64,000 nucleotides of DNA, taken from NCBI GenBank assembly GCA_037447655.1, contig JBBHKE010002852.1, positions 62,001 to 126,000 on the forward strand, written 5' to 3'. The stretch's first letter is position 1. The number at the start of each line of letters is the position of its first letter. Made by a program: the position numbers and the translations under genes. Under the pieces are notes generated by a model. That model ran no database searches, was not told the DNA's origin, and saw only the letters and a program-made list of their open reading frames with translations. This document shows positions 33,124 through 64,000 of this stretch, piece after piece. This DNA is from Zygnema cylindricum. Lineage: Eukaryota > Streptophyta > Zygnematophyceae > Zygnematales > Zygnemataceae.

Positions 33124-33135
33124 ATTAGGAGTTTT

Positions 33136-35549: not shown

Positions 35550-38500
35550 TTATCGTGGCATAATATCGCTCATCTCATAAAAGCTCTTGTTTGTTGTAGA
35601 AGATCGTACTCCCGGTGAACCAAAAATAATTGTACTGTACCCCAAATCTCGGCTTCCAGATGATGCCCTAATTTCGGAACCACCGTCCCTGTTGCTTTCG
35701 ACCAGACCTTTGGAAAGGGACCTAACGTTTTCTATCATCTTATCATCGATATCCACATCGACTTCACCGGAACATATTTCTTCAAGTCGGAGCTGAATAT
35801 CGTTCATGGGTGGACGATCCACACCAAATTGTTGTACACAGCTCAGGGCAAGGTTCGTGACAACTATCACCACGTCCATAAACTCGTTCTCATCTTTATG
35901 ATTTCTCAACCGCTGGTCAGGAATATGCTCCCAGTTATTCTCGTTCACTTTCTCCTTCACCTGTCAGATGACCCAATCGTTTTTAAGTTTTTTGTTTTTT
36001 TATTTTGTAGTATTCAGTTAGTACTTCAGTACACCTGTTTACTAGTGTTGTGTATCGGTAGCCATTTGCCGATAACCGATATGCCCCTTTTTTTGGTCTA
36101 TCGATAATCGATATTTTGTCGCGATATATTGGTACCGGTGTTATCGCGATAGAAAACCGATATTTTTTTATCGGTTTTTTATCGCGATAACACCGGTTCG
36201 ATAACTATCGTCGATAATTGTACGGTTCATACTGTACAGCTGTACTGTTTATTCCGTTGTACTGGACTTGCGTTCTCCCGTAATACTGGGTACGGAACAG
36301 AATGTCATACGTGGCATGCCACGCTATATACAACGAAAATGTAATATATATCATTAAGTACTATTATATAGCGTACTACATTTTTTTTCCGTTTATCGCC
36401 GATAAGGAATTTGTTGGTCTCGGAGCGATATATCGGGACCCCTCATCGTTCGATAACCGATAACTATCGGTATCGGTTTTATCGCGATAAGTTTTTTCAT
36501 GATACACAACACTACACTGCTAATCGTTATTAGTGTTAAAGTTTTTTTCGCCTCTCAAAACATCTTTTCTTTGTGCACACTTGTGGGAATGTTAATCGAA
36601 GACTGCCAATAGGAAGGTGAGGATCTTGCTTTCCAATAGCAACCATCGGATTGACAATCGGACGAGTGTGCACGAAGAAAAGATGTTCTGAGTGGCGAAA
36701 AAAAAAATAGCACTAATAACGATTAGCGGTGCACTGTTTACCTGATCATTTCAGTAAGTGTTTTGACTCTTCAAAACGTTTGGTTCCAGATATATAATGA
36801 TATCATTGTCCCATTTATGACTTCCATGGAGTCCACTATTCTCGAAATTTCAATGATGTTAAGAACCAGAAACTAGGAGGTCTCTGTAGCAACCTAAATT
36901 GAAACATGTTTAACAGGTGAGAATGAACTATTGTTTGGTGCTTACAACAAGATGCCTCTTCACTACACCATCTCCACCAGTAGAGTTTGTGAATTACTAT
37001 TGTTAAAGTGGTTTTAGAATAAACTACACTAGATTATGGTCAGACATCATCGCTCATTTCAGGCCACCTATTTACATGCATAATTAGTGTTATTAATGCT
37101 AATTTATCATTTTGGCTCAAAAAAACCTAATGCCCAAAAAATTATATCAGCTCTCACAGCGATGGAGTACTGTAAGCTACTCACCCATGATACCAAATAT
37201 GTGACTCCATTTCCTTCCTCCTCATCCTCGAAGATAGCTGTCCGACCCGTAAGTATTTTCAGAAGCACCACTCCAAAACTGCCCAAGCCCCAATCCCTCC
37301 CCAGATTCACATTCGCAACAATGAGATCAAGTTTAAGCAAATAGGTAGGAAAAATGTAACTAGTGAGCAAATGTGGTCGACTGTGACCTGTATACATCCG
37401 ATTTTGTGGTGACCAAAAAGGTGGTGTAGTACTCGGGGTCCAGATAGCCACGTGTACCAACCACCTTTTGTGTTTCTTGTGTATTGCCATTCGTTTCCAG
37501 GCGTTTCAAAAGTCCAAAATCCGCCAGTTTAGCCTGTGGAAGTGATTCAAGAATAAAACGAATGTGTTAAGAGAATTGGATATGGATTTCCTTTGGTCCA
37601 TGTCCTTGTTATTTGCAACTTGAAGAGTTGGGTGTATTGTATTTAAGGAACATATATCTACCAGTGTCAATATTTGATGACGGTAGAGACTTTTGCTTTT
37701 ATGTCACAAAAATATTGCCCTCTGAGATGAATACCTGGAAGTTTTCATCTAGCAAAATGTTTTCAGATTTTATGTCCCTGTGGATAATTGGCTCCTTCGC
37801 AAAACTTTGAAGATAGTTAAGGCCTCGAGCGGCTCCAAGGGCGATCTCCAGTCGTTGCTCCAGAGTCAAATGGCACTCAGGTGACTCTGCAAATAGAAGA
37901 AACATTTTTCAAGCTTTGTTACGTCTCCTGTTGTAACTTCTCTATATTTTCTAGTCAAGTCAAGTCAAATGAAGTCGTCAAGTCAAGTTTCTGGACAAAG
38001 CAAGTCAGAATTTTTCCCCACCATGTAAATGCTTGGCCAAAGTTCCCTGCGCCATGTACTCCATCACGAAAATTTGTTCGTCTTTTTCTGTACAGAAGCC
38101 TATCAGATGCACCAGGTTCACATGGTTCAGCTGCGATATCAGCTCCACCTGCATGCCCGACAAACCCGAATCTCATTTTCCATCCCACAACCACACCTTT
38201 TTCTCTCTCCATGTTGCACTCTTCTGCACACTGCATATTATTGCGTGTTTACTGCATATTCACAAGTAACCTACCTCCCGGACAAATTCCTGGAGGCTTG
38301 AAGGAGAGACATTTTTAGCACGTTTTACAGCCACCTTCTGTCCTTCGAGTTCCGCACGATAAACAGCCCCAAAACTTCCTGCTCCTAAAGACGTGTCATT
38401 GGAGAAGTCATTTGTGGCTGAACGAACCACCGCGAGAGGAATAGGTCGAACATGACGCTGCTGCAATCGAGCTAACAATTCAGCGCCACCTGTTGCCAAA

Positions 38501-41500
38501 AAAATCGTATAATTAATTGCTCTTAGAACCATCTGTTTCCCTTTTCTGCTGCAGTTTCTCTGCAAACCTGAGACTGCCTGACAATGGCCGAATGTCGCTT
38601 TCATGACCTACCTGGTCCTTTCGCAATTTGTCCAAAGTCAAGTTCGCGGGAAAGACGTCTTTGGCGAAAGAAGAGCAAGAGTGCAATTCCCAACAACACT
38701 AGAGAAAGGAGGGCGGCTCCCACTGCAATGCCGGCAATCATGCCTGCTGCCATATTGTTGGAACCTAACAGGAAAAGGAAGACAAAAGTACATATATTCA
38801 GTGTACAAAAATTATGTGTTCTGTATCCTTTTGAGCACATCGACAAAGAGTTAAACAGCAAATTTTTGATCTTATCAGGCATTGGAGAGGAGGAGCCTTA
38901 CTGGTGGAACCGATTGAGGGTCCCGGCAAAATGGCAAGAATCTCAAGACCGTTGAGCTTTGGCTCCTTCACACGAGACGTGCTACTGGCCAGAATGGAAA
39001 TGCGGATGAGGTTGGTGCTTGAATCTTTTGTAACTGTGAAAGTTTTATATAATGCAGTTGAAAACCCCGCCTCTTTCACTATGTCAAGCCCGGAATAAAC
39101 AAGCTGCATTCAAAATTTGGACAACTCTGGATATGATTAACAACCTTTCCCGGCTACAATATTTGTTAACTCCATCAGAAAAAATCAGACAAAGCTACAA
39201 TTCTGTAGAATGTAACGATAATTGTACAATATATGCTATTTTCGATGTAGCTATTCTTTCTCTCGTCTCAATGCACCACTGATCTATGAGAGGTTACATT
39301 GCTTTAGCCTGTAACCAGGAATCTGACCTTTAACACTTGTCCTATAAAAAATTGATATTTACAATATTTTCTTGTCCTCAACCGACACTCAGCATGTTTT
39401 TCACATCCTTTGCTTATCTTCAAGGAATAATGTGTATAAACACAAAAAGAGAAATTAATATATAAATCAAAAAACACAATAAACTATTGTTCAAGTCATT
39501 CGGAATTGAATTAGAATTAATAACATAAACATAAACCCCACGCTTATAATTCCTTTAATAGCGATCAACGGTGTACCTAGCTAAATAGCCTGTCATTCAG
39601 GTACAACCCATGCACTAATATTACTATTATTCTGTGAGATATACATGTTGGAAGATTAGCCTTTGATAGAAGCTATCTCTTATTAGAATTTTACTTGTGT
39701 TTTATAATACCGTAATCTAGAAATATTTAGCCTGTTTTAGTATCTAGGATTTCGATATTTCAGTTTTCTTTTTCTTTTAGTTAGATTTCTTCTCCGTACC
39801 TTAGGCACGATTAGATTCCGGTCAAAGATCTGTCTATGAATCTTGACCGCAGCTTTTGAGTGAAGGATCAAGTGACCCTTAAGGTTAGGAAAGTTCCTTT
39901 AGATCCGGAGAGGTCACTCTCGGAATATATTTCCCTTTTCTATTAAAACTCTGTCTGTTTCTTGTCGTTTATCAGTTCAAAAACCTTTCAGGCTCGTCTT
40001 TTAATCTAATAATACGCAGTTAACAAAGCGATTCAACACTCTAAAACCCGTCTCACTTGAACGTTTATTTCTAGTTTCACTTATCCCGACCTCGTGAATT
40101 TTGGGCATATCATTCAAAGTTTGAATGGTGCACACTATAGCCTTCCTCCTGTAAAAGTCAAAGCTGTCTAGCAATTTTTTTTACTAATATCTACATTTTG
40201 TCACCGTTTTATCTAAACTCACCTGGTCATTTACTTTAATGTCCAGCACACGATCTCCCGCGTTCACATAATCTGTTTCTACAAAATGCAGGCGCACCAA
40301 AAACTTGCTCCCATACAATGCATAAAATGACCCTGTAAGGCCATCGACCGAATTGTATATTTCTTGAAGTTTTCGCTGCGTCTGATATATGGTAGAGGGC
40401 ACACTCGCCAGCCCACTCGGTATTGCAATTTCTGTCAAAACATTTGAAACTATTGTATCCGGATTTGTGTAATTGGTTGAGTAATCCATTAGCCATGTGC
40501 GACCTTCCGAGTCAGTCACAGTTGTTCCTCCAACGTTAAAGCGATGTTGCCATCGGAGAATGTCTTTTGACTCGAGAGTTTGTTGGTATGGACTGCCATT
40601 AAGTTGAGGCATCACCTGGAAAAAAAATAATTGGAAAACACCTTTCAAGTTTCAGGGACACTGCTGTGTTTCAGATGTGCAAAGTAGTCTGAAGTATGTT
40701 CGATTACTACGGGAAAAACTCGAAAAAAATCCATGCTGTGTGCGCAATTCAACTGCTGCAGTTTTGTATATTTCTATAAAGAATGGTTTTTTAGCACAGC
40801 CAATCAGAAGCAATGGCAGAAAGCTTTAGTAGGTTGTGAACTGACCTCGATGCCATTGATGTATGGATCGCCTGATAACCGTACAAAAGTAATTGTGAGA
40901 TTGGGACCAAGAACAGGAAGAGAAAACTCATAGTAATACCCATAGTTGACTGAGATGATGTTAAAATTGTCAATCACCTGCATGGAGAAAAACGAAAGCG
41001 TCAAAGGAACCTTTCATGCAAATTAACGTTCTTAATCCTTTCGAGAGTACTCCTACAACAGACGGACAGGAGAAGGTATCTTTACCTGAAAGCCATCCAG
41101 GTACACCGAGAAAGTGCGAGCATTGGTGGTGGTGTACTCTGATTCCGCAAAATAAAATCGTACCTACGACATAAACCAAAATTTTAATTCTTTAAACATT
41201 GAATATCTGACATGAAAACTTAAAACACTTGAAATGTGATCAGCGTTCATCATCTGACTGACTCTCTCCAGAAATGAGATGGTGAAGAATTTAATTGAAA
41301 ACAAATAGCAAACATAAAGAAACGAGCTTAAAAAGTGAACTAGCTAATAGGTTAGGTGTGCCTGACAGAGGAATGACATAAGAATTCTTTGTCCCACTAG
41401 GCCACCGTCTATAGGTTGATGTTAAGAAAGGCTGATACACTCCACGATTCACAAGCATATTGAAGTACGACTGAGGAGCTGTTACCGCCTCTCCTCCTTC

Positions 41501-44500
41501 AAAATGCGAGTCAGCCTCCCACACCTTCCCGATAGGATCCACATATTTTGTGGACGAACCACAATTAATCCGAACGGTTCCTGCAATCCCAAGTCCAATA
41601 AATAACAAAATTGTCTCGATTAGATCGCCTACTATAATAGTTGTTTAGCTGCCACTAAAGAAAACACATAAATTATGGGTTTGCTTAGTTTCCTGCAATT
41701 TATTCCCAGTATTTTTTTTAGCTTTCACTGTATGAGACCTTTTGCCCCAATTCAAACATGCCATTTTTACCACCGGATAACATCAACACCCTTTTCATCG
41801 ACAACTGACGCAAAAGGAAATGACTTTAAGGTGTTGGTTATATAACAACATGTACCTTCAGGAGCTTGAGGGAAGGTGACATTATTAAAAATGATGAAAG
41901 CCTCAAATGCATTCAGCATCGGTTCCGGATGCCGACTTGTTCTGTTACCGTAAATAGCGTATGTGAGATTACCTCTTTCTGGATTTGCTTGGACCACTAA
42001 GTCCTTGTAAAAGGCAGTAAGAGGCCCAGCCTCAGCTATTATATCCAAACCAGACAATACCAACTGCAGAGGAAAAAAGTAAAAAAAGAAGTCACCAAAA
42101 ATACTTAAATTTCAACATCCGCCATGGACAGTTTGTTAACAATTCCTATTCTTTGAAGGTGAATAAAAAGAAAGGCTGACAAAGCTTTGACAGCTGAAAT
42201 AATGAATGTTTTGACTTCCCTCCAGTAAATATTCGACCCCGAGGTGAAACCGTGCTCTTTCCTTCTCATCGACATAAATGTCCATAATCCTGTCTCCGAC
42301 TTCCGAATACTCTAATTCCGAAAAATGAAACCGCAACAGAATAAAAGTATTACTTCCAAAATTTATCACTCTTCCCCTAATAGGACTCGCTGTTCCGTTC
42401 ACCGATACACCCATTTTTCGAGCTGTTTGGTAGAGATGGGGTGGGAGGTAGTCGGGAGTCGAGTTCGTTCCAGTTATTAGAAAGGTTGTTGTGATAATAC
42501 TTGAATTCAAGCCGACTGCAAAAGTAGAGTTATCGGTCGTCCATGAGCGTCTGAAAGAGTCGAGGACTTGGTAACCTCCAAAATTTTCCCGTTCAAGGAT
42601 ACCGAGAAGTCCCGGGTTATTTAGACTGTTTCTGTATTGGCTGGGAGTAGGAATTATCTGAAAACAAAGAAAAAACATGATGAGCGCCAGGATTATCTTA
42701 CCTCTTGTTGAAGAAACATCTGAAAGCTGCTACTATATCTTGTCACGATAATCAAGCAAAGTGTGTAATTCAAAAAATTGATGAGTCGTTTTGCGTTTTA
42801 CGGTTGTAATTACTAGGGCTCTAAAAGAAAGTTTTTCTTTGCCCGAAAAGAGAAAGTTTCAACTGTTCTGGACTAAGTTTTGAATAAGGACAGCAATGAA
42901 AGAAAGTCACTTCTTCCTATACCCCAGAGCCAAAGGAGGCTTTCTTTATCGACGGTGTTGAAGCTCTAAAAAATAGTATCTCACACCCTCTCTCTTTCAC
43001 TAATCAGTTTCGGTTTTACACTCAAATGGCTCATTTATTCTCAATTATCGGATACCTCTCCCTCCCCTCCCCGGCCCTCCCCAAAACAAAGGGCAAAGAA
43101 ATCAGAAAATTGAAAGTGTTATTTTCTTCTACCTCACGCCATAACTATACCTATCATTTCAGTTGCCATTGTTTTGCTTCCTCCCTTTAATTTAGTGGAC
43201 CGCAGCAATTACTTGTAGGAATATAATTGGATTAGAATAATATGTACGTACTTGGCATAGACAGTATTGTTTTCCCATTCAGATTAATATTGCATCTACA
43301 CTAATTACAATGAATTGTAACATTGCGACCCCAAATAGAGTTGAAACTCACCGCGATTGAGTTTATATATGGACTTCCGTAAAGGGGAATCAACTCGATT
43401 GTGATGTTGCTATATGAAGAGTGAAGACTGTACTGAGATACATAACTAGCATAATTCTCCGGAACATTATAATTGATCAAAACCTGCAAAAATCACACGC
43501 CCCGAGGCTCAGAATGTTAGGGCTATTACTTACGGCTATACAAAGAGTAAAAATATTACAGAGGCCATATCAACCTGTATCCAGAAAGGATCACATGGAC
43601 AGTATTTTTTCCAATGTTTGCCGATGCAACAGAAAATACATCTCTTTGTTACTGTCTGAAAGCCAAAAATAACTTCACTCTATAAATGCATGTAGGATAA
43701 GAAAAGCTGAGCTTACAAATTCTCCATTGATGGTCACTGCAAACGAACGATAGGTACCGTTTGCAATCTCGGCATTCGTGGATTCAATGTCCATAAAACT
43801 TAGCCAAACCTGCACCCAGAAAATGCTGACATTTAAAAAACTTGCTTATGTATAATCTGCACCTTTTCTATCATCTTATTTCTGGAGGCTCCTGTAATGT
43901 GCTTCTATGAATCCCATACTCATACAATCAACAATCCATAAACACAAGTAGACAACAAGTTTTACTCTTGTATGTGTCCTTTCTCTGGTTAGCATTGAAA
44001 CCTTTCCGACTCCACCAATAAGATACGTTGCCAGCAAAATTATCAAATGACTGAAAAGATGGATACTTCAGTCAAGGATTTTGCTACCGTTGAAGACAAT
44101 TAAAGACGAGATACTAGATTGTGTAGTCAAGAGATAAAAGGAAATTAGCTGCAAGCCTCTTGTTTGGCCACGTAACTCGGAGGAGTGTTTTGTTGTTAAA
44201 TTTTTAAATTTGTTTTGCCATGCATTATGGACTGTATTCCAAAACAGATGACTAGATTATCCTCTATATCTTCCAAAGACCCTAAAAAACCCTAAAAAAC
44301 ATACTAGCTAACAACTAAGTTGTTATTGCCCTTTGGTCTAACTAATATGTTACTAATCAAGGTGTTAAGATGAACTCACATGCAAGATCCACATTAAAAC
44401 AATCCGTCGCAATCCAAGTATTTTGTATTCCAAAGGTTAAATCAGGAATGTACAATACAACTGGGTCATATTTATGAGATTTTACTTACGTAATAAAATC

Positions 44501-47500
44501 CTGGTTCAACAGGAATAACATATGAACCACTGGTATGATTCCATCTCCGATAAGGTCCAAAGAGCTCCACATCAGGAACTAATGCAGTTGCCATTTTTCC
44601 AAGTATGGTTACATTCAGAGAAATGGGAGTTCCTCCCACATAGTACATGTCAGAACTCCATACATCTCCATATTGATCAGTGAAATCTTTTCCACCACAA
44701 TTTATCCGAATTGTCCCTGAAGAAACAAAGTTGTAGGAAAGAGGTTAAGAAAAAAGTAACACATGCACTTGACCTTATATAATAAAAATCTTTAGAGAAA
44801 AGCAGTTTTTCAAGAATATAATATCAACAACAAAAACAAAAAAGACAGTATTGATTTTAAAATCAGAACTAGCAGCACCTTTTGGTGGAGCCTCGACAAC
44901 GGGTAAAGGGAAAACTGACTGCACTTCATGTGCACTGAGATAAACCGCCGGGTTTTTGCTTTTACTATTTGACCGGATAGTCACATTCATCGAAGCCTCA
45001 GCCTCATTGGTACGAATTACCACATCTTTGTACAAACTCGCATTTGCTCCCACTTCGCCGACCACGTCTAGTCCTTCAAGATATGCCTGTCAACATTTTA
45101 TATTTTACCCACATTATATAACTTATCCCACATTATATCACCCACTCTACATTTTATCAAGAGTATGTTTCGAGTCCAATACTTCAACTACAGTACCGCA
45201 GAATTCATAAGGAACCTAGGAATAAGAGGCATATCACAAAAGTAGTCACCCACTTAGTTATTGTAAGTTTGTGCATTCAAATCCGTAAAAAAATTATCGA
45301 TACCAAATGTTTTAGGAGCCATCCATACACTACAACACCTACCACAATTCATATACACCACAAGAGTTTAGGAACCTGAAATTTTTACCTTCTCACAACA
45401 AACACGGTGGCTTACAAAAATGATAAAACCCCACCTACATTAGGTGATACCCATCTAACCACGCTATTTTTTCTTCTCAATACTGAATTTGAATCCACGT
45501 TAATGGTAGTAGGTGGTGTAAAATCTCAGAAGAATACCAAAAAATACCACTTTTTGCCACCATGATTTTTTTTTACCCACCTTCTCATTCACATAAACGT
45601 CCATTAGTCGATCCCCGACTTTCTCTCCGAGAATTGCTGCAAAATGAAGTCGCAGAAGGTAAACCCTGAGAAATCCTCCACTCAGTTCTTGCATCTGAAT
45701 TCTTGCTGGTAAGGAAGAATTTTGGAAATTTGTTGCTATTCTTATACTCTGAAAAAGTGCGACTGGTAAAAGGTCTGGTACCGTAGACACATTCGAAATA
45801 ACTGCCTTCACAGTAAAAGTTGAGAGGGAATTATTTGTGACGGCGACATAAGTTTGGGCTGTATCTCGATCCCAGGATCTCCCTTGCTCATCTTTTACAC
45901 TAAATCCTCCAGTATTATAACGCCACGTTCTCGTTATTACAACAGGAATTGGAAATTCCTCTCTGTATTGACCCTGTGGTTGGGGAATTATCTGCAATTT
46001 CGTGTCCAACAGTGTTAGAGATATGATAAATAAAACAGAGATTTCTTTCTAGCGAGAAGTTTGGTGTTTTCAAATTATTGAGCAATAAATAAATTTAGTT
46101 TTGATCTTAGTGAGAAAAAACATGTAAGCATTCCTGACTATGTACAGTTTTCAGTACGGTTCCATACCTCCAATGCGTAGAGATGGGCTTCTCCTTTGTC
46201 AGGAATGAACTTTAGAGTTAAAATGGTAGATTGTAAAAAATAACTGGTTTCTATATATTCGGACACGTATGGATCTGTTGGGGAATAGCCAGAAAGCACC
46301 TGCATAATTCAAATGTGACAGGAATTATCACTTTATAGGCATGAATTTTTGGTTTAAAAGTAACTCACTCCACTATGATTTCATCCTACTAGTTCTAAAA
46401 TATCCACGAGAGCACATCGATTGGAAGAAGGCAAATGTGCTTAACATTTTGACATCAACTCTTGTCTTTCTTTCCAAGCATTTCTTGTTATCGAAATGTT
46501 CGATTGCTATATTTCTCCAAACAATCTTAATTTTGGCAGCAAGGACAAGATATAAACGCCCTTTTATAACCTAGTATAAAGATGGAAAGCCCATCATTCA
46601 GATCTCAAGTGTCTTTTCTGTTACAACAGAAAGCTACAACCTCCATCATTTCTAGGGTCAAATAATTATCAGTATTGATGCAAAATAATAATCAATTTAA
46701 TAACCTGGGGCTGGTGGCTTGCTGTCCGCTCCTTTAATTAATGTTATTAGCACTATTTTATGAATTTGGGTAAAAGAAACGCCCAGCCAAATTATTGTTT
46801 TTAACTTTAATAGGGATAAGGGTTTAGCAATCACCCCCAACCCATTGATGTAAATGGACATTGATCGTTCGGAAGTGTTGTTGTATTTAAGCTCAGAAAA
46901 GTGTAATCGTATCTGCATTCCAAAGAAAACACTCCTCAGTTCGGAATACTCATGTTACAATTTTTGAGATCAATTTGTCGATAGCTTTACGTACGCGAAG
47001 CTCTAATTTGCATTAACTTTTTGGCTAAAACATACATCCAAAGAGTGATTTTACCACCAAAGGTGAGCAACCAAGCCTTGTGATAAAAATAACTTATTTG
47101 CACTAGCTTCAGAAAATTGACAATTTCAAAGATCGAGGACAATTTATCCTACCCAATAAAGTCCCGGCCTGAGTGAAAATCTGTACATTCCGATGTCACC
47201 AATCGGCCATACTCTTTCGGTTTTTTGTAAATCCACAGCTAGGTCATCATTTGCGGCCAGCATAACAATCGAATGGTCACTGTTGTTATATCCAACTCCC
47301 CCAATGTAATTGCTGTCTTTCGAATAGGTTTTACTGTAGGCAGTCGTGACAGACATGTTGGATCCACAGTTAATCCGAATGGCTCCTGCATTTAAAACGG
47401 CACAATATTTTCGGACGAAGGAACAACAAGGATAGTCAATTATCACAAATACCACTTACCTCCAGTTGTGTGATTCACACAGTGAAATAAGTGCACTATT

Positions 47501-50500: not shown

Positions 50501-51156
50501 TACCCTAAACTGTAATGAACAACTAGAAAAAGGGCACATTCTAATTCATTGAAGAAGGCGAAAGTAAAAAAAAAGGACTGTCTGCAAAATTTGTCGATCA
50601 AGTTTATGGCCAAAATGTTGACGAAATGGACCAAAAATAAATAAATAAATAAGGGCATAAATCATAGAAAATCCAGTGAGATCAATAGTTGGAGCAAAAG
50701 AAATTTTCAAAAACCTGTGAGTCAAAAGACACTAGGAAGATGATACCTTAATCATTAAATATTTTACTCTTAAAAAAAAAAGGGGGGTGGCTGGGAAATT
50801 GGACACATACCACTAGTAGGAGCAGGAAATATTTGCAAATCCAGGAGGTAGAAAATTTCTACTGCGCTCCACATTGTTTGCTTATATTTACTTTGTTCAT
50901 TGGCGGAAATTTTGATTGTGTGGTTATCAATCGTTGGTTCGGTTGAATCCACCACAAAATCTTTGTATAAAGCTGTATTGGGTCCCACCTCCTCCAAAAC
51001 ATCTAGTCCTGAATATCTTAACTGCACAGGAGAGAGCGGGAGAAGAGAAGGGGGGAAAGGCAGAGAGAGGGGGTGTAGGGAGAGATAGTGGGTAGTAGAA
51101 AGAGGGGCAGAGGGGAGAGGAGAGGGGCAAAGAGAGAAGGAAGAGGGAGAAAGAGG

Positions 51157-51201
<45 letters not shown>

Positions 51202-54200
51202 GTTTGAAAGATGACCATCGAAGATGCTGACTCTTTCACGATACTCGGAATTTTTTTTTGCGATGTTGAGTAGGTGACATGTATTCACAAAGGAATCCTT
51301 TACCAATTAGGGCAACCACAAAATTAACTGCATTTTTACCCCAAAAAAGCCCTGGAATAACTTTTATTTTGAAAAAAAAGTCCCTTTTGTGAAAAAGAGG
51401 CCTCTCACCTGACCGTACATATAGATATCCATAATCCGGTCACCCACATTTTTAAACTGAAGTTCCGCAAAATGAAGCCGAATCAGGATATACGACTTGA
51501 AAGGAGAAATTGAAGAAATAAGGAGAGCTCTTGGGTTTTCTGTCGTCGAATCAACAATTTGTTGACTACGATAAATTTCAGGCGGAAGGAAATCGGGATA
51601 CTTTCCTGTTCTTGCAATTTCGAGATTGGTATTGGCGGTAAGCGTACGAACTGCCATAGATTTGCCGGTTGAAGGATTTATGTAAGAACTAGTACTGTCT
51701 CGAGACCAATATCGTGATTGAGCATCGGGTACTGACAATCCTCCAACATTTTGGCGTAAATAGTTGCGTAGTGTGTATTTTATTGTTAGGAGTTCCTGGT
51801 ACTGGGAAGAGGGCGCGGGAGTTACCTGCAATTGTAATACACAACAATGATTTTATAAGCGCTGTAAAGAATAAGATCGCGGAGATTTAATTCACATAAA
51901 AAATGCTTGAAGTGTTCGACATGATATGCATCATTGCAACACATAAATCATTGCAAAACATCCATTCCAGAATCAGGAAATTAGCACTGTGAACTTAATT
52001 TCATTAGAACCCTGAAATAAAATGATAATGCAGAACTGTAGATCGGAAATCTACTCCACTAAAAACAAAATAAAGCAAACTTTCTGGTTTTACAATTTAC
52101 CTCGATTGCATTTACATATGGAGCACCGGAATATAAAGTAAAGGTAATGGTCAAGTTTGAGGTTGAAACTGGAACAAGATACTCATATTCATATACTGAG
52201 AAAGAGGAGCCAACATTGACATTTGTCAATACCTGCAAAGCTTAGAAAAAGGTTGGAAAATCAGAATTAATACCAACAATTGGACTGTAGAGTGATTTAT
52301 TTATGACTGTAAATGGTCAGCAAGTAAATGATTTTTGACACTGAAATCACTTTTTTTGTAGTAAAGATCACACGTAAAGGTCGACTGTGTAAAAACATGC
52401 CATACAACAGTTTTCTTGAGCACAATGTTCTAGATGATTACAAAAATCAAACTGTTAATTGTTATTCACACAAGAGACTCTCAACATCAAACTCATATAA
52501 CCAAGCTTGCAAATGACCAAAGCAAAAGAAAAAAAAAATCGATTTCGGTCTTCACTTACCACATAGCCATTAAACGAAACGGATAAGTACCTCAGAGTCA
52601 TATTTCCAGGCTCAAAAAATGATAAACGCACCTGAAAAAAAGTGGAAGTATTCTTGCCATTGTCTTTTTTTCCAACCCGAGAAACATAATAGAGATAGTA
52701 CAATCATCCTAAAATTTAAGAAACAATTGCATAAGAAACTATCCTTTTTGTCCTCATTCAGGAAAGAGCAACTATCACGTACGCATCTGTGTCAAAAACT
52801 TTTGAAAAACAAACAAAAAAGGTAATTTAAAAAAAGAAAAAAAACTTACCAAAAACAGTTCTGCGCCCGAATCTAATGGAATGTTGTAGGAATTTTCAAC
52901 TCCAACAGGCCACTCCCTGTAGGTTTTGTATAGAGGGATATCACCGCCAAAATTATTACTAGAATACTCTTTTAAGTCGGAATCGTTGAGAGTTTTAGCA
53001 ATTCCTGTCGTAAAATAGTTATCTTTTTGCCATGAATTTCCTCCCTCGTCCGTATATGCTTCCCCTCCACAGTTGATTCTTATTGCCCCTGTATGAAAAA
53101 CCAGAGAGAGAGAAAAAAAAAAAAAAAACGCAAGTTAAACGTCCATAGATAATCCACAATCTGAATTGGTTTTCAATTTGAACAGCTTTTTCTTAATGCC
53201 AGTTTTATGCAAAAAGTCTATTAAAACGGAAGATTCATTTGTAATTTCTGCAATGTTTTTTACATTGCAGAAATTGAGGATAAAGATTAAACGTTTCATT
53301 CTGACATTTTAACAACAATATAATTCGAGTTAAGAACATAAAACATACAGAATAATCGCACTTTTTGCACCAGTCTTCCCATTCAGTGACGGACTGACGG
53401 GTGACAGACCGTACAGTTTAGTCGGGACGTAAACCCTAATCCAATTCAAATTTCCAAATTCTGGAATTTCGTAAAAATGCAAAATGGACGAATTGTGTTG
53501 TACTTGAGAGTACAAAAATTACTGTACGGACCTCCAGGACCGGTTTGGTTCCAAGAAACGCGATATTGATACACCTCGATACCACTTAAAATCGGTTCTT
53601 GTACGGCACTTTCGGTGTTTGGTACGATTCCAATTACAATCGAGAGAGAATCGAGATAAGGAAGTGAATTAAAATCCACATAGAAACCACTGTTACGCCC
53701 AACTTCAGAAATTATATCAAGGGCGCGTCGGACTACCTGCAACCAATCACACTTTTTTTGTTTTTAACTTTTTTTTTTCAGTCAGTTATCCACAACGGAA
53801 CTGAAAACAAAAGCTATAAGGAACCAGCAAGTCATTCTTGCAGATTTTGATATTTGTAGGCTTGCCAAATTAATTTGTATATATTTTTAGACATTTACAA
53901 CCAACTTGAAAATTGGAATTGAGGAATTTTTTTTCACGAGCTTCTTATGAATCTCAATGTACAAAGACAATATTGGCATGTACGATGCCGGAACATTATT
54001 CTTCAAAATATTTTAAAAATTGTCCAAATATTTCGAACTATACAACCAATACAATTTAACTCGCATTTTACGGAATAAAAGTAGAGTCATTTACAGTTTT
54101 CCTAAACCTCCGCACTTTATAAAAATAGTTCGAACTAATGGAGAGTCCGCCGACTACCAAAATTTCTTACAACATATTAATATCCCCTTTCATGAAACCG

Positions 54201-57200
54201 CTACCTTAGTGTCCTATTTGCAAAATAAAATAAAAATCAGCAAGCTTTTACACCCAGCGAAATACCAATAATTTTGACATTATGAAACATCCTCTTAATT
54301 AAAATGCTACTTACAGTTCCATGGAAAAAAAAAAAAAATGTTTTTCCGGCTTATTTTCACGAGTATTTATTATCCGCAGTCGAGAATCACTCACCAATCC
54401 ATTGATGTATATGTCCAGAAGCCTCTCTCCCACTGTCAAATTAGCAATTTCGGTAAAATACAACCGAATTAAATGATACGTACTAAATCAAACCGGTAAG
54501 GCAATCACGAGGCCATCGGAGCCGTTCATTTCCGCCGAGATTGTTCTCACGCCGTTAAAAACTCTGCTAGGAATCGTCTCTGGAAGTTTATTTGAACCGG
54601 AAATTGCGGACGGCGCATTGAGAATTGTTGAATTTTTGTTTGTGTAAAAATCCGGCGAATCCGACGGCCACAAACGTCCCAGGTCGTCGAAAAAGCTTTC
54701 TTCTCCGCACACAAATCGCCATTTTTTTATGAGAATAAATGTCCCCGTACCAATTTGTCGGTATTCGGTCGTAGTTGTGGCCTTCACAATCTGATTTCAC
54801 AGAAAAAAAAAAAAAAACGGAAAAAGCAAAACAAAAAAGGAAACAAGTCAAGAGCGTTTAGTTTTTCAAGAGAGTTAGTTTTTTTTTTTCTATTTTACTT
54901 TCTTATATGTTTTGAAGGAAAATAGTGTTATGAATTATACTCTAAGAACCTTATAATTTTTCATTCATAGTGTCAACCGCTTCGGGGCTATGTATGGTGG
55001 AAAGAAATATATATTATTATTATAATTTGTAATGTATAAAAAAACAAATGTAGGTTTTGCCTCAAATCTTTTGAACATAAATACGACATTTTTGGATAGA
55101 TGAAAATGGATCCGATACAATAAATAAAAAAAATAAAAAGCAAAACAAAAAAGGAAACAGCTGAAGAGAGGGCGAGAGGGAGAGAGGGGAAGTGGGAGAG
55201 AGGGGTAGAGGGAGAGGGAGAGGAAGAGGGAGAGAGAGAGGGAGAGGGAGACGGAGAGGGAGAGGGAGAGGGAGAGGGAGAGGGAGAGGGAGAGGAGAGG
55301 GAGAGGGAGAGGGAGAGGGAGAGGGAGAGGGAGGAAGGGAGATAGGGGGAGAGGGAAAGGGAGAGGGAGAGAGAAAGGAGAGAGGGAGAGAGAGGGAGAG
55401 AGAGAGGGGGAGAGGAAGAGAGGGAGAGGAGAGAGGGAGAGAGGGAGAGAGGGAGAGAGGGAGAGAAGGAGAGAGGGAGATCGGAAAGGAGACGAAGAGG
55501 GAGAAAGGAGACAGGCATAGCGAGAGAGAGAGGAGAGGGAGAGGAGGGAGGGAGGAAGAGAGGGAGGGAGGGAGGAAGAGAGGGAGGGAGGGAGGAAGAT
55601 GTTAAGATTCCTTAGGTTTTGCCTCAAATCTTTTGAACATAAATACGACATTTTTGGATAGATGAAAATGGATCCGATACAATAAATAAAAAACATGAAA
55701 AGCAAAACAAAAAAGGAAACAGCTGAAGAGAGGGCGAGAGGGAGAGAGGGGAAGTGGGAGAGGGAGAGGGAGAGGGAGAGGGAGAGGGAGAGGGAGAGGG
55801 AGAGGGAGAGGGAGACGGAGAGGGAGAGGGAGAGGGAGAGGGAGAGGGAGAGGGAGAGGGAGAGGGAGAGGGAGAGGGAGAGGGAGAGGGAGGAAGGGAG
55901 ATAGGGGGAGAGGGAAAGGGAGAGGGAGAGAGAAAGGAGAGAGGGAGAGAGGGAGAGAGAGAGGGGGAGAGGAAGAGAGGGAGAGGAGAGAGGGAGAGAG
56001 GGAGAGAGGGAGAGAGGGAGAGAAGGAGAGAGGGAGATCGGAAAGGAGACGAAGAGGGAGAAAGGAGACAGGCATAGCGAGAGAGAGAGGAGAGGGAGAG
56101 GAGGGAGGGAGGAAGAGAGGGAGGGAGGGAGGAAGAGAGGGAGGGAGGGAGGAAGATGTTAAGATTCCTAGGATCGGGGGATAGAATAGACGATCCCAAT
56201 GTAGGGATTGATGAGCCGGCCAGGATTATATAGGTTTAAGTGTGGATTTTTACCACAATTCCGGATATCGAGCAAACATTTCACGTACGTCAACACCCCC
56301 CCTCGAGAGGTAGCCGGTCATAATTGTCCATGTAAACCTAGTCCCCTTGGCTCCGATACCATGTTAAGATTCCTAGAATCGGAGGATAGAATGAACGATC
56401 CCAATAAAGGGAATGATGAGCCGGCCAGGATTTGAACCTGGGACCTTTCACTTTAGCTGTGAATGTACTAACCACTGTACCACCAGCTCAGATGTTACGC
56501 TGGTGGGTCCAATATTATATAGGTTTTAGTGTGGATTTTACCACAATTTCGGATATCGAGCGCACGTTTCACGTACGTCAACACCCCCACCCCACGTACG
56601 GCCAGGATTTGAACCTGAGACCTTTCACTTTAGCTCCGAACGCACTATCACTGTGCCACCAGCTCAGATGTTATGCTAGTGGGTCCAATTTTCCAATTTT
56701 ATATAGGTTTAAGTGTGGATTTTTACCACAATTCCGGATATCAAGCGCACATTGGGATCGTCTATTCTATCCCCTGATCCTAGGAATCTTAACAGAAGAG
56801 AGGGAGGGAGGGAGAGAGGGAGAGAGGGAGAGGAGAAAAAAGTTGTACTTCAATGCCAGAAATATGAGGCCGGCCGAGGTAGCTCAGAAAGGTGACGCTG
56901 ATGCCATTTTTGTCGATAGGAACAGAAAATTCTTCGAAACTTCCTCCTGCAGAGAAATTCAGAAGGACCTGCATTCTCCGTTTGCTTCTCAAATGACTCA
57001 GGTCGCAGGTCAAAACAGTTGAATTTGGATGGCGAGGGTCTCCCGGTTCGTTTCTTGGGCCACAAACTTCACTTCTTTCGTTGACCTTCAAACCGAAAAA
57101 GTCAATTTTGATTTAGCGCTTTACAGTAACCATGTCAGACTGCGACAGTGACAGCGACAGTGACAGCGACAGAAGTCTTAAAGTCTTAATGCGGCAAGGC

Positions 57201-60200
57201 TATAAGACGTTTTTTTTTTCTTTCTGAAGCTTTAATTTCTCTCCCCTCTCGGCCTTTTTTCCCTTCCCCTCACTCTCTCTCTGCCTCTCTCCGCCTCTTA
57301 CAGTTTTTTTTTCTTGATTCTGTGTACGTCTTTCCAAATAGGTGTCCATGGAGGATTTGATAAAAGACGACATGATGGAATTGGGTGTTAAAGTGGTATT
57401 TAAAACGATTAATAGTATTGCAAGAGGGACATATAATATGGTGACAGAATCTATGGAAAGAGTCTCATGGTTCATTGAAGTGAAACACAAAAAAGGAATC
57501 GACGAGCAAAAAATCATTTTTCAGATGCAACTTGAGAATAATATACTGTCTATTCACAAGCTTCCAAGCCAACAATCTTTGCATTTTAAATCTTTGTCAT
57601 CGAAAGGCAACTGGAAGTGGGAAAGAAATTTAGCTTCTCTCCAGTATTGTGAAACTGAAAGATCGGTCTTTATGGATCAGATGAAGAGGGGAGGCTTGGT
57701 AGAGGGAAATGTAACTCACATGTGTGCTGTCATGAGTCTCAAGGATCTGATTGGTCTGATGGCCTGTTGGCTTCTTTTCTTCTGGGAAGGGCTGGTAGCT
57801 GAAAAGGATTTCAATGACAGTAGATCCCTCATGGAGATAAAATGTCGTCATTATTCGCTTGAAAATGTGTATGATGGGGAAGTGACGATGGGGTACTGTA
57901 GCAAGCTTGACAAGTTTATGACATTATGTGTCAATGTAGTGTGTTTTCACATTGAGGAAAGTTATGGCATAGATGCTAGCTTGCAAGAAGAAAAATCTGA
58001 GGATAAAAGAGAGATGGGGGACCTATAAAATTCCTAAAATCGGGGGATATAATGAACGATCCCAATAAAGGGATTGATGAGCCGGCCAGGATTTGAACCT
58101 AGGACCTTTCACTTTAGCTGTGAATGTACTAACCACTGTACCACCAGCTCAGATGTTACGCTGGTGGGTCCAATATTATATAGGTTTTAGTGTGGATTTT
58201 ACCACAATTTCGGATATCGAGCGCACGTTTCACGTACGTCAACAACCCCACCCCACGTACGGCCAGGATTTGAACCTGAGACCTTTCACTTTAGCTCCGA
58301 ACGCACTATCACTGTGCCACCAGCTCAGATGTTATGCTAGTGGGTCCAATTTTCCAATTTTATATAGGTTTAAGTGTGGATTTTTACCACAATTCCGGAT
58401 ATCGAGCGCACATTGGGATCGTCTATTCTATCCCCTGATCCTAGGAATCTTAACAGAAGAGAGGGAGGGAGGGAGAGAGGGAGAGAGGGAGAGGAGAAAA
58501 AAGTTGTACTTCAATGCCAGAAATATGAGGCCGGCCGAGGTAGCTCAGAAAGGTGACGCTGATGCCATTTTTGTCGATAGGAACAGAAAATTCTTCGAAA
58601 CTTCCTCCTGCAGAGAAATTCAGAAGGACCTGCATTCTCCGTTTGCTTCTCAAATGACTCAGTCTCCCGTCACACTTTATTTATTTAAAACAGCACAGGC
58701 TTCTTCAGATTGTTAAGAGCAAATTGAATGTACGTTTACTAACTAAATTTTCCACAATTTAGCACTTTAGTATAATGTGTGAGATTTACAGATAGCAGCC
58801 GTTGTCATTAAAGTTTAGGGGAGAAACAAAATAATGAGTTTGTTTTCCGGTATCTATAAGAGGTTTGGTGGTCAAATCTTTTTAATGTCCTTGCTGTAAA
58901 CTGAAAAAATAGTGACATATTTCATGTTTTCAATTAGAATTTTACGAAGGAATGGTGAACTCAAATTTTACCTGGTGAAATTTGAATCAAAAACATAATA
59001 ATAATAACGATATCCTCATTTTCCGCACTTATAAAGTATGAAGTATAGAAATGGATTGTACACACACCCTCTTCATATGTAGTAGCGACATTATTACAAT
59101 AGCAAATATAGCTCGACTTTTTTTTATTAATTCTGAGACAGTTTTCGTATTTTTACTCACAGTCATGTCATTCAGAGCAATAGAAAAAGAACCGCCTGTT
59201 TGATTGACATAACCAAAACTAGAAAAATAGAGGCGAACCTGTCCAGTGAAAAAAAAGAAAAAAAAATAAAATAAAAACAAATATGAATAAATAGGCATTC
59301 AAAACTGCAAGGTAACCTTCCATAATATGCATGTTAAAATTCTCTGACAGGTTTCTTTTAACCCCAAAGCTGCATTTTCAATCCGTTTCTAAAACTAGAT
59401 TCCCATTACATTCAAACTATCTCTATATAACCACACCTATAAATGTCTCTAGGAATGCCTTTTTTTCTCCAGGCTCCATTGAAAATTGCTAGAGCTGGAA
59501 ACACTTTTGTACGTATAAAAGTGCATTCCTTTTGTTTGGTACTTTTGTACTTTTGTGTTTTTGTACTTTAGTACTTTGTGTACTCACCCAATAAACTCCG
59601 GATGTCAATGGAATATAGTATCCGAAACTTTGGTTGAAGTCAGTCGGCCATAAACGCGCCGTCGAAAAAATGTTTTCCGTTCGTTAAGGGCAGCGAGTGT
59701 GGTGTTTTCCCCTCCCACAACATAGGGAGAACTTAAATCTCCCGACCATACTCGTCCATAAACATCGGCTAGGGAGGGCCCACCACAATTAATGCGGATG
59801 ACGGAGACTGCATTGGATAACTGAGGCTAGATAAGAGATTTGTCGATGGGATTCAAAACGATAAGAGTACATTTTGTGAAAGACATAGACATTTGACACC
59901 AGTATAAGACAATGAATGTGGAGAGGGACACGTGTATAGCAACTTGGAGGCATTTTTTGCAGATAGAAATTGCCAAAGTGGCGATCGTATGGTCAAATTG
60001 AACTGTGGCAAACCCGTTGACAAAAAGTATGCGATGGCAGTTTTAAGAGACTATTGGCCACTTAAAGCATGGAGTGGTTCCTGTGCGATCACATAATGTA
60101 GAAGCATCCACTACAGAATGAGTTCTGAATTATTTTTGACAGTCATGGAGAAGCAGTATGATTCTAAATGGCAACACTTAAAATGCCAACATTCACTAAA

Positions 60201-61562
60201 TGGAAACTGGCGCTTCAATTCGACCTTCACGATTGAACGTTAGCCTGATTCGGCTTTTCGTTAGACATTAAATTTCATGATGATTATAATGGTTGAGAAT
60301 TAGCGTTGATTTTGAACACCCAACATTTCACATTTCGCATTCAACAACCCACATCGAACAAACTAACCAACATTTGAAAAACCAAAATTGAACAATGCCT
60401 TAGCCTTGAACATCGCACATTGGCTGGTGGGCATTGTCCAATGAACACCCCAAATTTTGCAATTAAAACATCATACATATATGAGTGTGTATGTGTATAA
60501 TTGAAAATTGAAGCCTAATTGAGATCCAACAATTTAAAAATTTAATACACATTGTAAACTTGGTATGTGTTTCACGACTAGATACGTCCATTTCATCTTT
60601 ATATATCCTTTTTTCAATGTCCTTCGATTCTATCTTAATTATAATTCGAAGCAATGTTCATCTTTAGCCTTTAATGGTGGTCAAAAATTTTGCATCGTGC
60701 TCTATACCCAAAAAGGTTAACCTATTGCAAAAATTATGAAATAGAATCTTCTTCTCTCGTATTTATATTCAGCTTATTTTCTAAAAGAAAAAGGAGTAAA
60801 GGGATGAAAACCTGACAGAGAATAAAAAAAAAACTCCCATTTCATCCTATTTTGGACCGTACAATTCGGTTTTTCACATTAATAAATCCACCCGGGTTAT
60901 ATGCACTTTTTGACCTCATCCTCCGTGACGTGACAATTTTTACAGAAAAATAGACCTCAGCCAGGAAGTCCAATTCCATTTTTTTAAAACCGGTTTTTGT
61001 AAAAAAACCACCCCCCCCTTTTTCTTTTCTCCATTCCTCCGGATTTAGATTCTAGTTGTGAGTCAAAATTGGGGAATTTGGTTAAAAAAAATTACATTTA
61101 AAAAATTAAGTATTTAAAAAAAAAAATGGAGACCCAATTTCAATTCATTAAATTCAGTTTTTTCTCAAATTCTGGTTCAGCAATCATGAAACGGTTTAAA
61201 TCATGAAAAAAAGGTAAGAAAAAACGGTTTTTCCCTGCAAAAACATCTGTTTAATTTGGTAAAAGACGGCGGTTTTTCTCCGATATGAAAATCGGGAATC
61301 GGTCAATTTGCTTCAAAAAACTTCTAAAAATTCTAAAAATCCTTGTCCCCAAAAAAAAAAAAAAAAAGGAATAAAATGTTCGCATTTCCTTCAATATCCA
61401 CTCACCATTTTGTGCTGCCGCATTTCCCAAAAAGTCCGCCATAAAAAACAAAATCACAGAAACGACAAAAGTTGGATGAGCTGGTAGGTGACGCCATAGC
61501 TGTCCCGGCGCTGCCACGTCAGCCTTCCTTTGCCTCCAACGGAACTGAACTCCGTTATCCAT
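35550..61562 (-). CDS. penta-malectin-like receptor kinase (possibly defective at its 5' end)
   Basis: Predicted plasma-membrane receptor kinase of about 2,230 aa. The signal-peptide exon 61562-61406 (start MDNGVQFRW, hydrophobic [19 protein letters not shown]) is followed by five tandem malectin-like modules of about 345-357 aa, one transmembrane exon, and a complete kinase ending with TAA at 35550. There are 33 exons; coordinates are in the module entries. Each module repeats the same five exons, starting in phase 1 (..RINCG) and ending in phase 1, so they join in frame. Only one signal exon and one TM/kinase set exist, so I read one gene rather than five. Malectin-like ectodomains bind cell-wall or peptide ligands in relatives such as FERONIA; the ligand here is unknown, and no LRR was seen. 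Module 1 carries a frameshift and a stop, so full-length protein may not be made unless those exons are skipped. cDNA is needed to settle the model. Confidence 0.8.
36043..36514. mobile_element. hAT-like non-autonomous element
   Basis: Perfect 14-bp terminal inverted repeats TAGTGTTGTGTATC (36043-36056; reverse complement 36501-36514). The octamer CTGTTTAC precedes it (36035-36042) and recurs at 36734-36741, beyond the MITE nested at its right end: an exact 8-bp hAT target duplication. The interior is full of TATCGCGATA-type palindromes and is non-coding. Confidence 0.85.
36515..36731. mobile_element. TA-MITE family copy nested in hAT-like terminus
   Basis: Long inverted repeats: cactgctaatcgttattagtg at the left and cactaataacgattagcggtg at the right, continuing inward with ttttttcgcc.ct and acatcttttctt. 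It sits exactly after the terminal TA of the hAT-like element. The right-hand duplicate reads CA, one change from TA. Confidence 0.85.
37065..37135. repeat. TA-MITE family fragment next to kinase exon
   Basis: attagtgttattaatgctaatttatcattttggctcaaaaaaacc shares the core of the copies at 0.7 and 46.7 kb. It ends about 50 bp from the donor of the kinase exon 37185-37278. Confidence 0.4.
38275..38764 (-). other. receptor-kinase transmembrane exon and kinase N-lobe exon
   Basis: Exon 38764-38612 encodes [20 protein letters not shown] then LLLFFRQRR, a single helix followed by a basic stop-transfer. Exon 38489-38275 starts the kinase: [20 protein letters not shown] contains the glycine-rich loop GAGSFG, VAVKRAK holds the ATP-binding lysine, and EFVREVELI (running into the next exon) carries the helix-C glutamate. 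Confidence 0.9.
38902..41580 (-). other. malectin-like module 5 (membrane-proximal)
   Basis: Exons: a 41580 to about 41355 ([20 protein letters not shown].., [17 protein letters not shown]; donor unclear), b 41163-41086 ([13 protein letters not shown]), c 40977-40846 ([18 protein letters not shown]), d 40615-40223 ([15 protein letters not shown].., [18 protein letters not shown]), e 39103-38902 ([20 protein letters not shown]). Exon a lacks the usual G-Y-W plus donor ending; after IPLSG the frame runs on without a good GT. Exon e ends in phase 1 and joins the TM exon. Confidence 0.8.
41856..44716 (-). other. malectin-like module 4
   Basis: Exons: a 44716-44490 ([20 protein letters not shown]), b 43809-43717 ([15 protein letters not shown]), c 43483-43352 ([20 protein letters not shown]), d 42657 to about 42262 ([16 protein letters not shown].., [20 protein letters not shown]), e 42063-41856 ([20 protein letters not shown]). 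At the point where sister modules splice after exon d, this one reads GAGAAG|GAAAGA with no GT. The next in-phase GT (after ..CTC GGG, eight codons on) is weak. All other borders are canonical. Confidence 0.8.
44879..47385 (-). other. malectin-like module 3
   Basis: Exons: a 47385-47153 ([16 protein letters not shown].., [20 protein letters not shown]), b 46912-46835 ([20 protein letters not shown]), c 46299-46168 ([18 protein letters not shown]), d 45991-45581 ([18 protein letters not shown].., [16 protein letters not shown]), e 45086-44879 ([19 protein letters not shown]). Frame is open throughout. The donor of exon b (GTGATT) lies 8-10 bp from the end of a MITE remnant, so its use should be checked. 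Confidence 0.85.
46725..46828. repeat. TA-MITE family remnant abutting exon 3b
   Basis: tgttattagcactattttatgaatttgggt is shared with the copies at 0.7, 13.4 and 37.1 kb. The right end ctttaatagggataagggttta corresponds to the family terminus and stops a few bases from the splice donor at 46835. Confidence 0.5.
47604..47800. mobile_element. TA-MITE family, full-length copy
   Basis: TA at 47602-47603 and 47801-47802 flank an element starting CACCGTGTATGGCTATTAGTG and ending cactaatagcgatacacggtg. The inverted repeats extend about 60 bp inward (cgcc or ggcg, acatcttttctt, gtacacac). Non-coding; it lies upstream (- strand) of module 3 exon a. Confidence 0.88.
48519..49470 (+). mobile_element. 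GGGC-TIR element, copy B, 3-bp target duplication
   Basis: Starts gggcgtgtccccatgt and ends acatgggacacaccc, flanked by TCA on both sides (48516-48518 and 49471-49473). It is the inverted, diverged copy of 32198-33123. The long + strand ORF over it is a mobile-element artefact. It lies in the intron between modules 2 and 3. Confidence 0.75.
49474..50750. other. module 2/3 intron remainder
   Basis: A + strand ORF of about 90 codons (49649-49918; [15 protein letters not shown]..) has no recognised family. Otherwise the stretch is AT-rich; no receptor exon was found here on either strand. Confidence 0.4.
50811..53088 (-). other. malectin-like module 2
   Basis: Exons: a 53088-52850 ([19 protein letters not shown]..), b 52631-52560 ([13 protein letters not shown]), c 52232-52101 ([20 protein letters not shown]), d 51825-51409 ([18 protein letters not shown].., [20 protein letters not shown]), e 51021-50811 ([20 protein letters not shown]). 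All borders are canonical and all phases close (357 codons). The intron between d and e holds a GA microsatellite (about 51024-51203). Confidence 0.88.
55051..56160. repeat. GA microsatellite in a 562-bp tandem duplication
   Basis: Two copies, about 55051-55612 and 55613-56160, each start with taggttttgcctcaaatc plus about 110 bp of unique sequence. Each then runs through roughly 400 bp of gagaggga-type repeats and ends in ggaggaaga. Copy 1 also ends with TGTTAAGATTCCT, the first 13 bases of the LTR that begins right after copy 2, so the duplication is younger than the LTR insertion. Ser/Pro/Leu-rich ORFs here are artefacts. Confidence 0.9.
56418..56489 (-). tRNA. tRNA-like sequence in LTR, perfect cloverleaf, CTA anticodon
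   Basis: This 72-nt - strand sequence pairs fully: acceptor GAGCTGG/CCGGCTC (one G-T), D-stem GTAC/GTAC, anticodon stem TTCAC/GTGAA, T-stem CCAGG/CCTGG. The D loop is AGTGGTTA and the T loop TTCAAAT. The anticodon loop AGCTAAA puts CTA at 34-36, which would read UAG, but position 33 is G instead of the near-universal T. The A box TGGTACAGTGG fits the pol III consensus and the B box GGTTCAAATCC is one base off. No T4 terminator follows at once. It may be a pol III-transcribed LTR module rather than a working tRNA. Confidence 0.55.
56595..56665 (-). pseudogene. degenerate tRNA-like copy in the same LTR
   Basis: This 71-nt - strand relative of 56418-56489 keeps the B box and T arm, but its acceptor 3' half (CCGTACG) and anticodon stem (TTCGG/GTGAA) no longer pair. 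The loop AGCTAAA is retained. Confidence 0.6.
57001..57341. other. unique spacer with possible broken malectin exon and SD-repeat ORF
   Basis: On the - strand, 57010-57080 encodes [20 protein letters not shown] before a stop at the duplication breakpoint. It looks faintly like the SNLTITF part of c-type malectin exons and may be an exon fragment. On the + strand, 57131-57200 opens [20 protein letters not shown], then T-rich and C/T-rich tracts lead to CAAATAG just before the 228-aa ORF, so it could be a first exon of that gene, but no good donor is seen. Confidence 0.3.
57342..58028 (+). CDS. 228-aa protein of unknown function
   Basis: An uninterrupted [19 protein letters not shown] to ..EDKREMGDL, lies inside the receptor gene on the opposite strand, between the two copies of the 1,661-bp duplication. 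Visible features are a charged N-terminus, a hydrophobic stretch [18 protein letters not shown] (about residues 138-155, a possible membrane segment), several scattered cysteines and an acidic tail. No family recognised. Its TAA lies at the edge of the second LTR copy. A CAAATAG acceptor-like site directly precedes GTGTCCATGG, so it might be the last exon of a spliced gene. It could be captured host sequence or the body of an unknown element. Confidence 0.5.
   Translation: MSMEDLIKDDMMELGVKVVFKTINSIARGTYNMVTESMERVSWFIEVKHKKGIDEQKIIFQMQLENNILSIHKLPSQQSLHFKSLSSKGNWKWERNLASLQYCETERSVFMDQMKRGGLVEGNVTHMCAVMSLKDLIGLMACWLLFFWEGLVAEKDFNDSRSLMEIKCRHYSLENVYDGEVTMGYCSKLDKFMTLCVNVVCFHIEESYGIDASLQEEKSEDKREMGDL
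58079..58150 (-). tRNA. tRNA-like sequence, second intact-looking copy
   Basis: Same as 56418-56489 apart from a T-stem change (CTAGG/CCTGG) that still pairs through G-T. The CTA anticodon and G33 are retained. Duplicated with its LTR. Confidence 0.5.
58256..58326 (-). pseudogene. degenerate tRNA-like copy, duplicated
   Basis: Counterpart of 56595-56665 at the constant 1,661-bp offset, with the same broken acceptor and anticodon stems. Confidence 0.55.
61406..61562 (-). other. receptor-kinase exon 1: signal peptide
   Basis: The ATG at 61562 opens [17 protein letters not shown] hydrophobic stretch [14 protein letters not shown] then precedes the likely cleavage region AAAQ. The exon ends ..CAA AAT G|GTGAGT in phase 1, matching the phase-1 acceptor of exon 2. 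The frame is open further upstream but has no earlier ATG. A short form starting at the internal Met before ADFLG is possible. Confidence 0.75.
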
Positions 61563-63967: not shown

Positions 63968-64000
63968 TACTGTACTGTAGTCGTCCACTATCGACAAAAT

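Follow-up and report, generated by a model that had tools for sequence, protein, structure and literature searches.

Among described receptors, those closest to the locus analysed here are the CrRLK1L proteins (FERONIA, ANXUR1/2, THESEUS1), in which a single double-malectin unit without LRRs is joined through one transmembrane (TM) segment to an RD kinase, and whose size is given as 800-900 residues in the available part of PMC7618880. A second group, the malectin-like/LRR kinases (LRR-I, SymRK), carries LRRs between the malectin-like domain and the TM segment. The Pfam family PF12819 stands for two malectin domains in tandem, found on kinases alone or with LRRs (available text of PMC5485988 and PMC7783096). 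Malectin-like receptor kinases outside the land-plant CrRLK1L group are described from streptophyte algae, namely Closterium CpRLK1, with a CrRLK1L-like composition, and Chara genes, which average about 1,000 residues and place an LRR between the malectin-like domain and the TM segment; the available portion of that description mentions no multi-unit malectin array for either (PMC7618880). As far as its accessible text goes, the open-licence PMC literature yielded no description of more than one double-malectin unit per receptor, and there may well be relatives that are unpublished or known only as annotations.

The locus considered here lies in a 64,000-nt stretch of Zygnema cylindricum DNA (the window) and, as read from its sequence, is a real, unusual receptor architecture whose first unit is broken. 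On the minus strand, from 61,562 to 35,550, we mapped 33 exons (one signal-peptide-like, 25 ectodomain, one TM and six kinase), with the ectodomain exons in the order A-A2-A3-B-C repeated five times:

61406..61562, minus strand: exon 1, ATG and signal-peptide-like segment, ending in phase 1 with the donor ATG/GTGAGT
53532..59807, minus strand: module 1 (broken); A 59807-59588, A2 59238-59161, A3 58629-58510, B 54790-54395, C 53736-53532
56968-56849, minus strand: second A3 copy of module 1, within a tandem duplication
50811..53088, minus strand: module 2; A 53088-52850, A2 52631-52560, A3 52232-52101, B 51825-51409, C 51021-50811
44879..47385, minus strand: module 3; A 47385-47153, A2 46912-46835, A3 46299-46168, B 45991-45581, C 45086-44879
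41856..44716, minus strand: module 4; A 44716-44490, A2 43809-43717, A3 43483-43352, B 42657-42262 (homologous end), C 42063-41856
38902..41580, minus strand: module 5; A 41580-41345 (GC donor), A2 41163-41086, A3 40977-40846, B 40615-40223, C 39103-38902
38612..38764, minus strand: transmembrane exon, hydrophobic stretch
35550..38489, minus strand: RD kinase in six exons; 38489-38275, 38148-38022, 37886-37735, 37533-37388, 37278-37185, 35960-35550 (stop TAA)

A sequence-only reading of this DNA had proposed five double-malectin units without LRR, one TM segment and one RD kinase in one gene, and this architecture is supported. Its one signal-peptide exon, its 25 ectodomain exons in five repeats, and its single TM exon and intact RD kinase all find their counterparts in the list above, and the five modules total 5,249 nt, in line with the ectodomain of about 1,750 aa that it gave. 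The signal peptide and the TM segment are assigned solely from hydrophobicity, and the splice sites were picked by eye to match the repeat, so that the exon set is a model and not independent proof of it. In this model, acceptors are AG in 32 of 32 cases and donors GT in 30 of 32. Exon lengths give a phase pattern in which the module is entered in phase 1 at A, all its internal junctions from A to C are in phase 0, and it is left in phase 1 at C; 24 of the 25 ectodomain exons obey this pattern, the exception being exon A of module 1, and B4 and A_5, two of the 24, have no GT at their homologous ends. The compatible phases proposed earlier therefore hold by length for these 24 exons and do not hold for A1, which is out of frame; B1 moreover contains a TGA, and the B4 and A_5 donors lack the GT. 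The donors of A2_4, K2, K3 and A3_1, left out of the training of our home-made matrix, score just 1.2-1.6, as low as the cryptic donor of B4 described below.

With homologous joins, none of the 28 exons outside module 1 interrupts the reading frame. This frame survives omission of module 1 and likewise omission of B4: the signal peptide followed by modules 2-5, the TM segment and the kinase gives an open frame of 1,894 aa if both damaged sites are spliced at the homologous junctions, and one of 1,762 aa when B4 is skipped as well. These junctions replace an earlier splice model of 1,928 aa, which was discarded and which had used the cryptic B4 donor and a GT for A_5 scoring -5.6.

Pfam matched malectin families on all five modules, as the sequence-only reading would have it, with PF12819 in modules 2, 4 and 5 and in a piece of module 1, and absent from module 3. 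Module 2 matches PF12819 at 1.2e-23 (positions 1-330 of 331), module 3 matches PF11721 at 3.1e-20 with no match to PF12819, module 4 matches PF11721 at 7.1e-18 and PF12819 partially at 4.8e-13, and module 5 matches PF11721 at 3.3e-24 and PF12819 at 7.7e-21 over nearly the whole module, where the scan of modules 4 and 5 used the earlier splice model with its extra residues. Cutting module 1 at its lesions leaves three pieces, two of which pass the Pfam cut-offs (PF12819 2e-6, PF11721 4e-7), while the first, of 48 aa, stays below at just 12.4 bits. A profile combining modules 2-5 matches the ectodomains of ANXUR1 (3e-21), FERONIA (1e-20) and ANXUR2 (6e-19) in nearly end-to-end alignments, from which it follows that one module corresponds to one double-malectin unit; the first third of the profile also aligns with animal malectin (5e-5). 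At the level of sequence, the five modules are thus ten malectin folds. No LRR was listed by Pfam at E up to 1 in modules 2-5 or the TM-kinase part, and the gap between C5 and the TM exon, where LRR-I and SymRK-type receptors carry their LRRs, is a 137-nt intron. The four open modules hold 27 N-glycosylation sequons. The predicted structure of exon B alone had a mean pLDDT of 38.6 and was not used.

Exon-type profiles were built from modules 2-5 only and searched against the 2,158 stop-to-stop frames (20 aa or longer, all six frames) of the whole window. Each exon type was found five times and in order, with A3 of module 1 doubled. Module 1, held out of training, was recovered through A at 5.9e-7 (with the second half, which is in a different frame, at 0.0049), A2 at 0.0042, the two copies of A3 at 1e-4 and 2e-4, B at 1.8e-10 with the half behind the stop at 6.8e-7, and C at 1.7e-7. 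Apart from these, the matches with E <0.5 comprised seven weak strays, the best of which (profile C, plus strand, 52,434-52,583) reached 0.014, and cross-matches linking the first malectin fold of these modules with the second. With 20 shuffles per profile, the best E values were 0.14 for A, 0.0044 for A2, 0.012 for A3, 0.044 for B and 0.073 for C, and since A2 of module 1 at 0.0042 is by itself no better than chance, this exon rests on its position, phase and splice sites. Pairwise identity between modules is 25-38%.

The kinase domain matches PF07714 at 5e-48, and VAVK, HRD, DFG and LDPE are all present in the alignment. Its PDB matches are a tie between SymRK (214.9 bits, the best match) and FERONIA (213.9 bits), and also include BRI1, BAK1 and an entry labelled protein kinase, which we take to be a Pto-type kinase. 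With a putatively secreted ectodomain, one TM segment (both by hydrophobicity) and a kinase of this type, the gene has the features of an RLK/Pelle receptor kinase. The locus resembles the CrRLK1L receptors in having a PF12819-type ectodomain homologous over nearly its whole length to ANX1/FER, no LRR, one TM segment and an RD kinase, and differs from them in its five units (four of them open) instead of one, its 33 exons, its 1,894 aa even without module 1, and a kinase that scores equally with SymRK. It shares a malectin-like ectodomain and the best kinase match with the malectin-like/LRR kinases, and differs from them in the absence of LRRs.

Damage that the sequence-only reading had overlooked lies at four places, the last of them a possible lesion:

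59588..59807, minus strand: exon A of module 1 out of frame, with 220 nt against 239, 233, 227 and 236 nt in the other A exons
54488..54490, minus strand: in-frame TGA in exon B of module 1
42256..42264, minus strand: donor of B4 reading AAG/GAAAGA, GA for GT, at the position of the GT donor of the other B exons
41339..41347, minus strand: possible lesion, donor of A_5 reading TTA/GCTAGT, GC for GT

The break in A1 adjoins short homopolymers (AAAA, TTTTTT), and the TGA is not at a homopolymer. Each of the two donor changes is explicable by a single base. For B4, a cryptic in-frame GT at 42180-42179, 81 nt further on, scores 1.39, a value that 34% of minus-strand GTs reach; for A_5, 92% of minus-strand GTs score at least as high as the -5.6 of the alternative in-phase GT, and its GC donor may work in a GC-AG intron. 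The intact five-unit protein of the sequence-only reading does not survive this inspection, given two disabling changes in module 1 and damage to two donors; as the sequence reads, A1 out of frame and the TGA of B1 rule such a protein out.

Several repeats and remnants lie in and around the gene:

56365..58662, no strand assigned: tandem duplication, 98.7% (58026-58662 against 56365-57001), which includes tRNA-like repeats as well as the extra A3 exon of module 1
33133..33370, plus strand: broken signal-peptide exon copy in inverted orientation, 75% to 61374-61598

Two tRNA-like genes with a CUA anticodon (56415-56490 and 58076-58151, minus strand; 98.7% alike; Rfam tRNA 56.6 and 53.9 bits) are accompanied by partial copies (88%) at 56599-56666 and 58260-58327. 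Such genes could in principle act as amber suppressors, a rescue that we rejected because CUA does not match the TGA lesion; they look like tRNA-derived (SINE-type) repeats. A large simple-sequence (CTCTCC-like) stretch at 55051-56169, tandemly duplicated (97.5%), lies within a module 1 intron. The inverted signal-peptide copy adjoins the other copy of a mobile element that also lies within the gene, has no match to the modules 2-5 malectin-exon profiles near 33,133-33,370, and is a probable remnant of the 5' end of a paralogue. Three element copies of roughly 210-230 bp (36508-36738, 47598-47806 and 63744-63976) resemble a palindromic mobile element in that they match themselves in reverse complement (74-78%). 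Neighbouring the gene are an inositol-pentakisphosphate 2-kinase exon (6257-6985, plus strand, 3.7e-31) with a second piece below cut-off (1019-1555, 0.0034), an Omp85 exon (11060-11317, minus strand, 2.6e-10) and a frame with a tRNA pseudouridine synthase domain (26447-28294, plus strand, 6.9e-15). As to the host, the receptor family suggests a plant or an alga close to plants, and the Omp85 and inositol-pentakisphosphate 2-kinase exons are compatible with this.

It is important to consider whether two or more adjacent receptor genes have been misread as one. The gaps between modules are 443, 3,425, 162 and 275 nt, and the 3,425-nt gap (C2-A_3) could hold gene ends and contains a mobile-element copy (48,520-49,471, 89% to 33,123-32,197), whereas the remaining three, at 162-443 nt, are short. 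Hidden signal-peptide or kinase exons between modules had been named beforehand as findings that would speak against a single gene, and neither the scan nor the kinase probes found any. The scan combined three criteria (ATG, hydrophobic stretch, phase-1 donor). It detects exon 1, the donor of which had also served as training data, and gives no candidate in the four inter-module introns; across 33 kb of minus-strand background it produces four hits, located at two places. Five kinase probes each match one exon and nothing else at E <0.5; in the search for the sixth kinase exon, the next best kinase match among those listed is on the plus strand at 33,549-33,662, with E 0.03 and a stop. The short introns, the lack of a signal-peptide candidate between modules and the absence of a second kinase point to one transcription unit with its one signal-peptide exon and one kinase on the minus strand; on these grounds we set separate genes aside as highly improbable. 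Collapsed or duplicated assembly copies, also named in advance as a possible artefact, were ruled out because the units are just 25-38% identical, the only recent duplicate being the A3 exon of module 1.

The same divergence means that the duplications are old, and this bears on the present state of the locus. We let the entire gene decay neutrally in a simulation that covered substitutions, indels (5-15% as frequent as substitutions) and splice dinucleotides, with module 2 as a stand-in for an intact module 1, and three lesions arose at a median of 0.22-0.40% substitutions per site and four at 0.31-0.55%, with 95% ranges from 0.04% to 1.4%. Since an old array has collected three to four lesions expected at so little neutral divergence, selection probably kept the array until recently; for module 1 alone, where about 1 kb contains two lesions, constraint may have ended earlier. 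No other observation argues as strongly as this contrast between old modules and recent decay for the architecture having been in use, regardless of its state now. The locus would then make at most a shorter receptor, or be a recently disabled gene, that is, a pseudogene or null allele of a five-unit receptor that was functional until lately and gives no working protein now. We put the latter at not far short of an even chance: a frameshift, a nonsense codon, a lost donor and a GC donor are spread over modules 1, 4 and 5, repeats and an internal tandem duplication have entered module 1, a dead paralogue fragment lies at 33.1-33.4 kb, and the lesions fit a median neutral divergence of 0.2-0.6%, although the exons outside module 1 are open in 28 of 28 cases, the kinase motifs are in place, and the frame is rescued by omitting module 1 and B4. 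Recent inactivation of the whole locus is thus about as likely as a four-unit product, and the two readings share the same architecture and history and differ only in present function. That the lesions are instead errors of an unpolished assembly, or confined to one allele, and that the true gene encodes an intact five-unit receptor seems unlikely; the homopolymers beside the A1 break and donor changes of possibly one base each would fit, but the changes are of three different kinds, including a stop codon away from any homopolymer, and the neighbouring 616-aa pseudouridine-synthase frame, the sole control of that kind, is uninterrupted.

We consider it likely that the locus is a single plant-type RLK/Pelle gene whose ectodomain arose by cassette duplication, that the ancestral receptor had five units, and that the present product, if any, is most probably a four-unit one. 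The architecture, the identity of the units, the symmetry of the frame and the damage can be read off the DNA itself. The ectodomain would have grown through repeated duplication of a five-exon genomic cassette, each cassette being one complete double-malectin unit of ANXUR/FERONIA type, and because the cassettes are bounded by phase-1 introns they can be added or dropped without loss of frame. The ancestral product would have had five units (ten malectin folds) and one RD kinase. The N-terminal unit is broken in the present sequence, and since omitting unit 1 and omitting B4 both keep the frame, any present product would most likely be a four-unit receptor, one of its units perhaps shortened through exon skipping. 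Such a protein would presumably be secreted, anchored in the membrane, bind ligand and signal, most likely as a surface receptor of CrRLK1L or SymRK type, in which the malectin string would make several contacts with its ligands (wall polymer and/or peptide) and the kinase would be activated by clustering.

The multivalent cell-wall or glycan sensor of the sequence-only reading stays a candidate role, and a string of units bearing 27 sequons would be well suited to multivalent binding, be it to polymers of the wall or to peptides bound there. In the available text of PMC6038381, no oligosaccharide binding was detected for ANXUR1 and HERCULES1, and related ectodomains are without canonical carbohydrate surfaces; for FER, BUPS1 and ANX1/2, in vitro binding to pectin is reported (available text of PMC7618880, citing others). 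A broader proposal, which we hold tentatively and at clearly less than even odds, is that there is a receptor class with a variable number of double-malectin units, in which phase-1 cassettes are gained, decay and are skipped, and of which this locus would be a live four-unit, formerly five-unit, member. If true, such a class would provide long multivalent wall-sensing ectodomains. A string of four to five units would be a natural multivalent version of a malectin-like receptor, useful for asking how wall or peptide sensing is set by how many malectin folds there are and how they are spaced, and the locus illustrates how phase-symmetric exons may let a receptor ectodomain grow and shrink.
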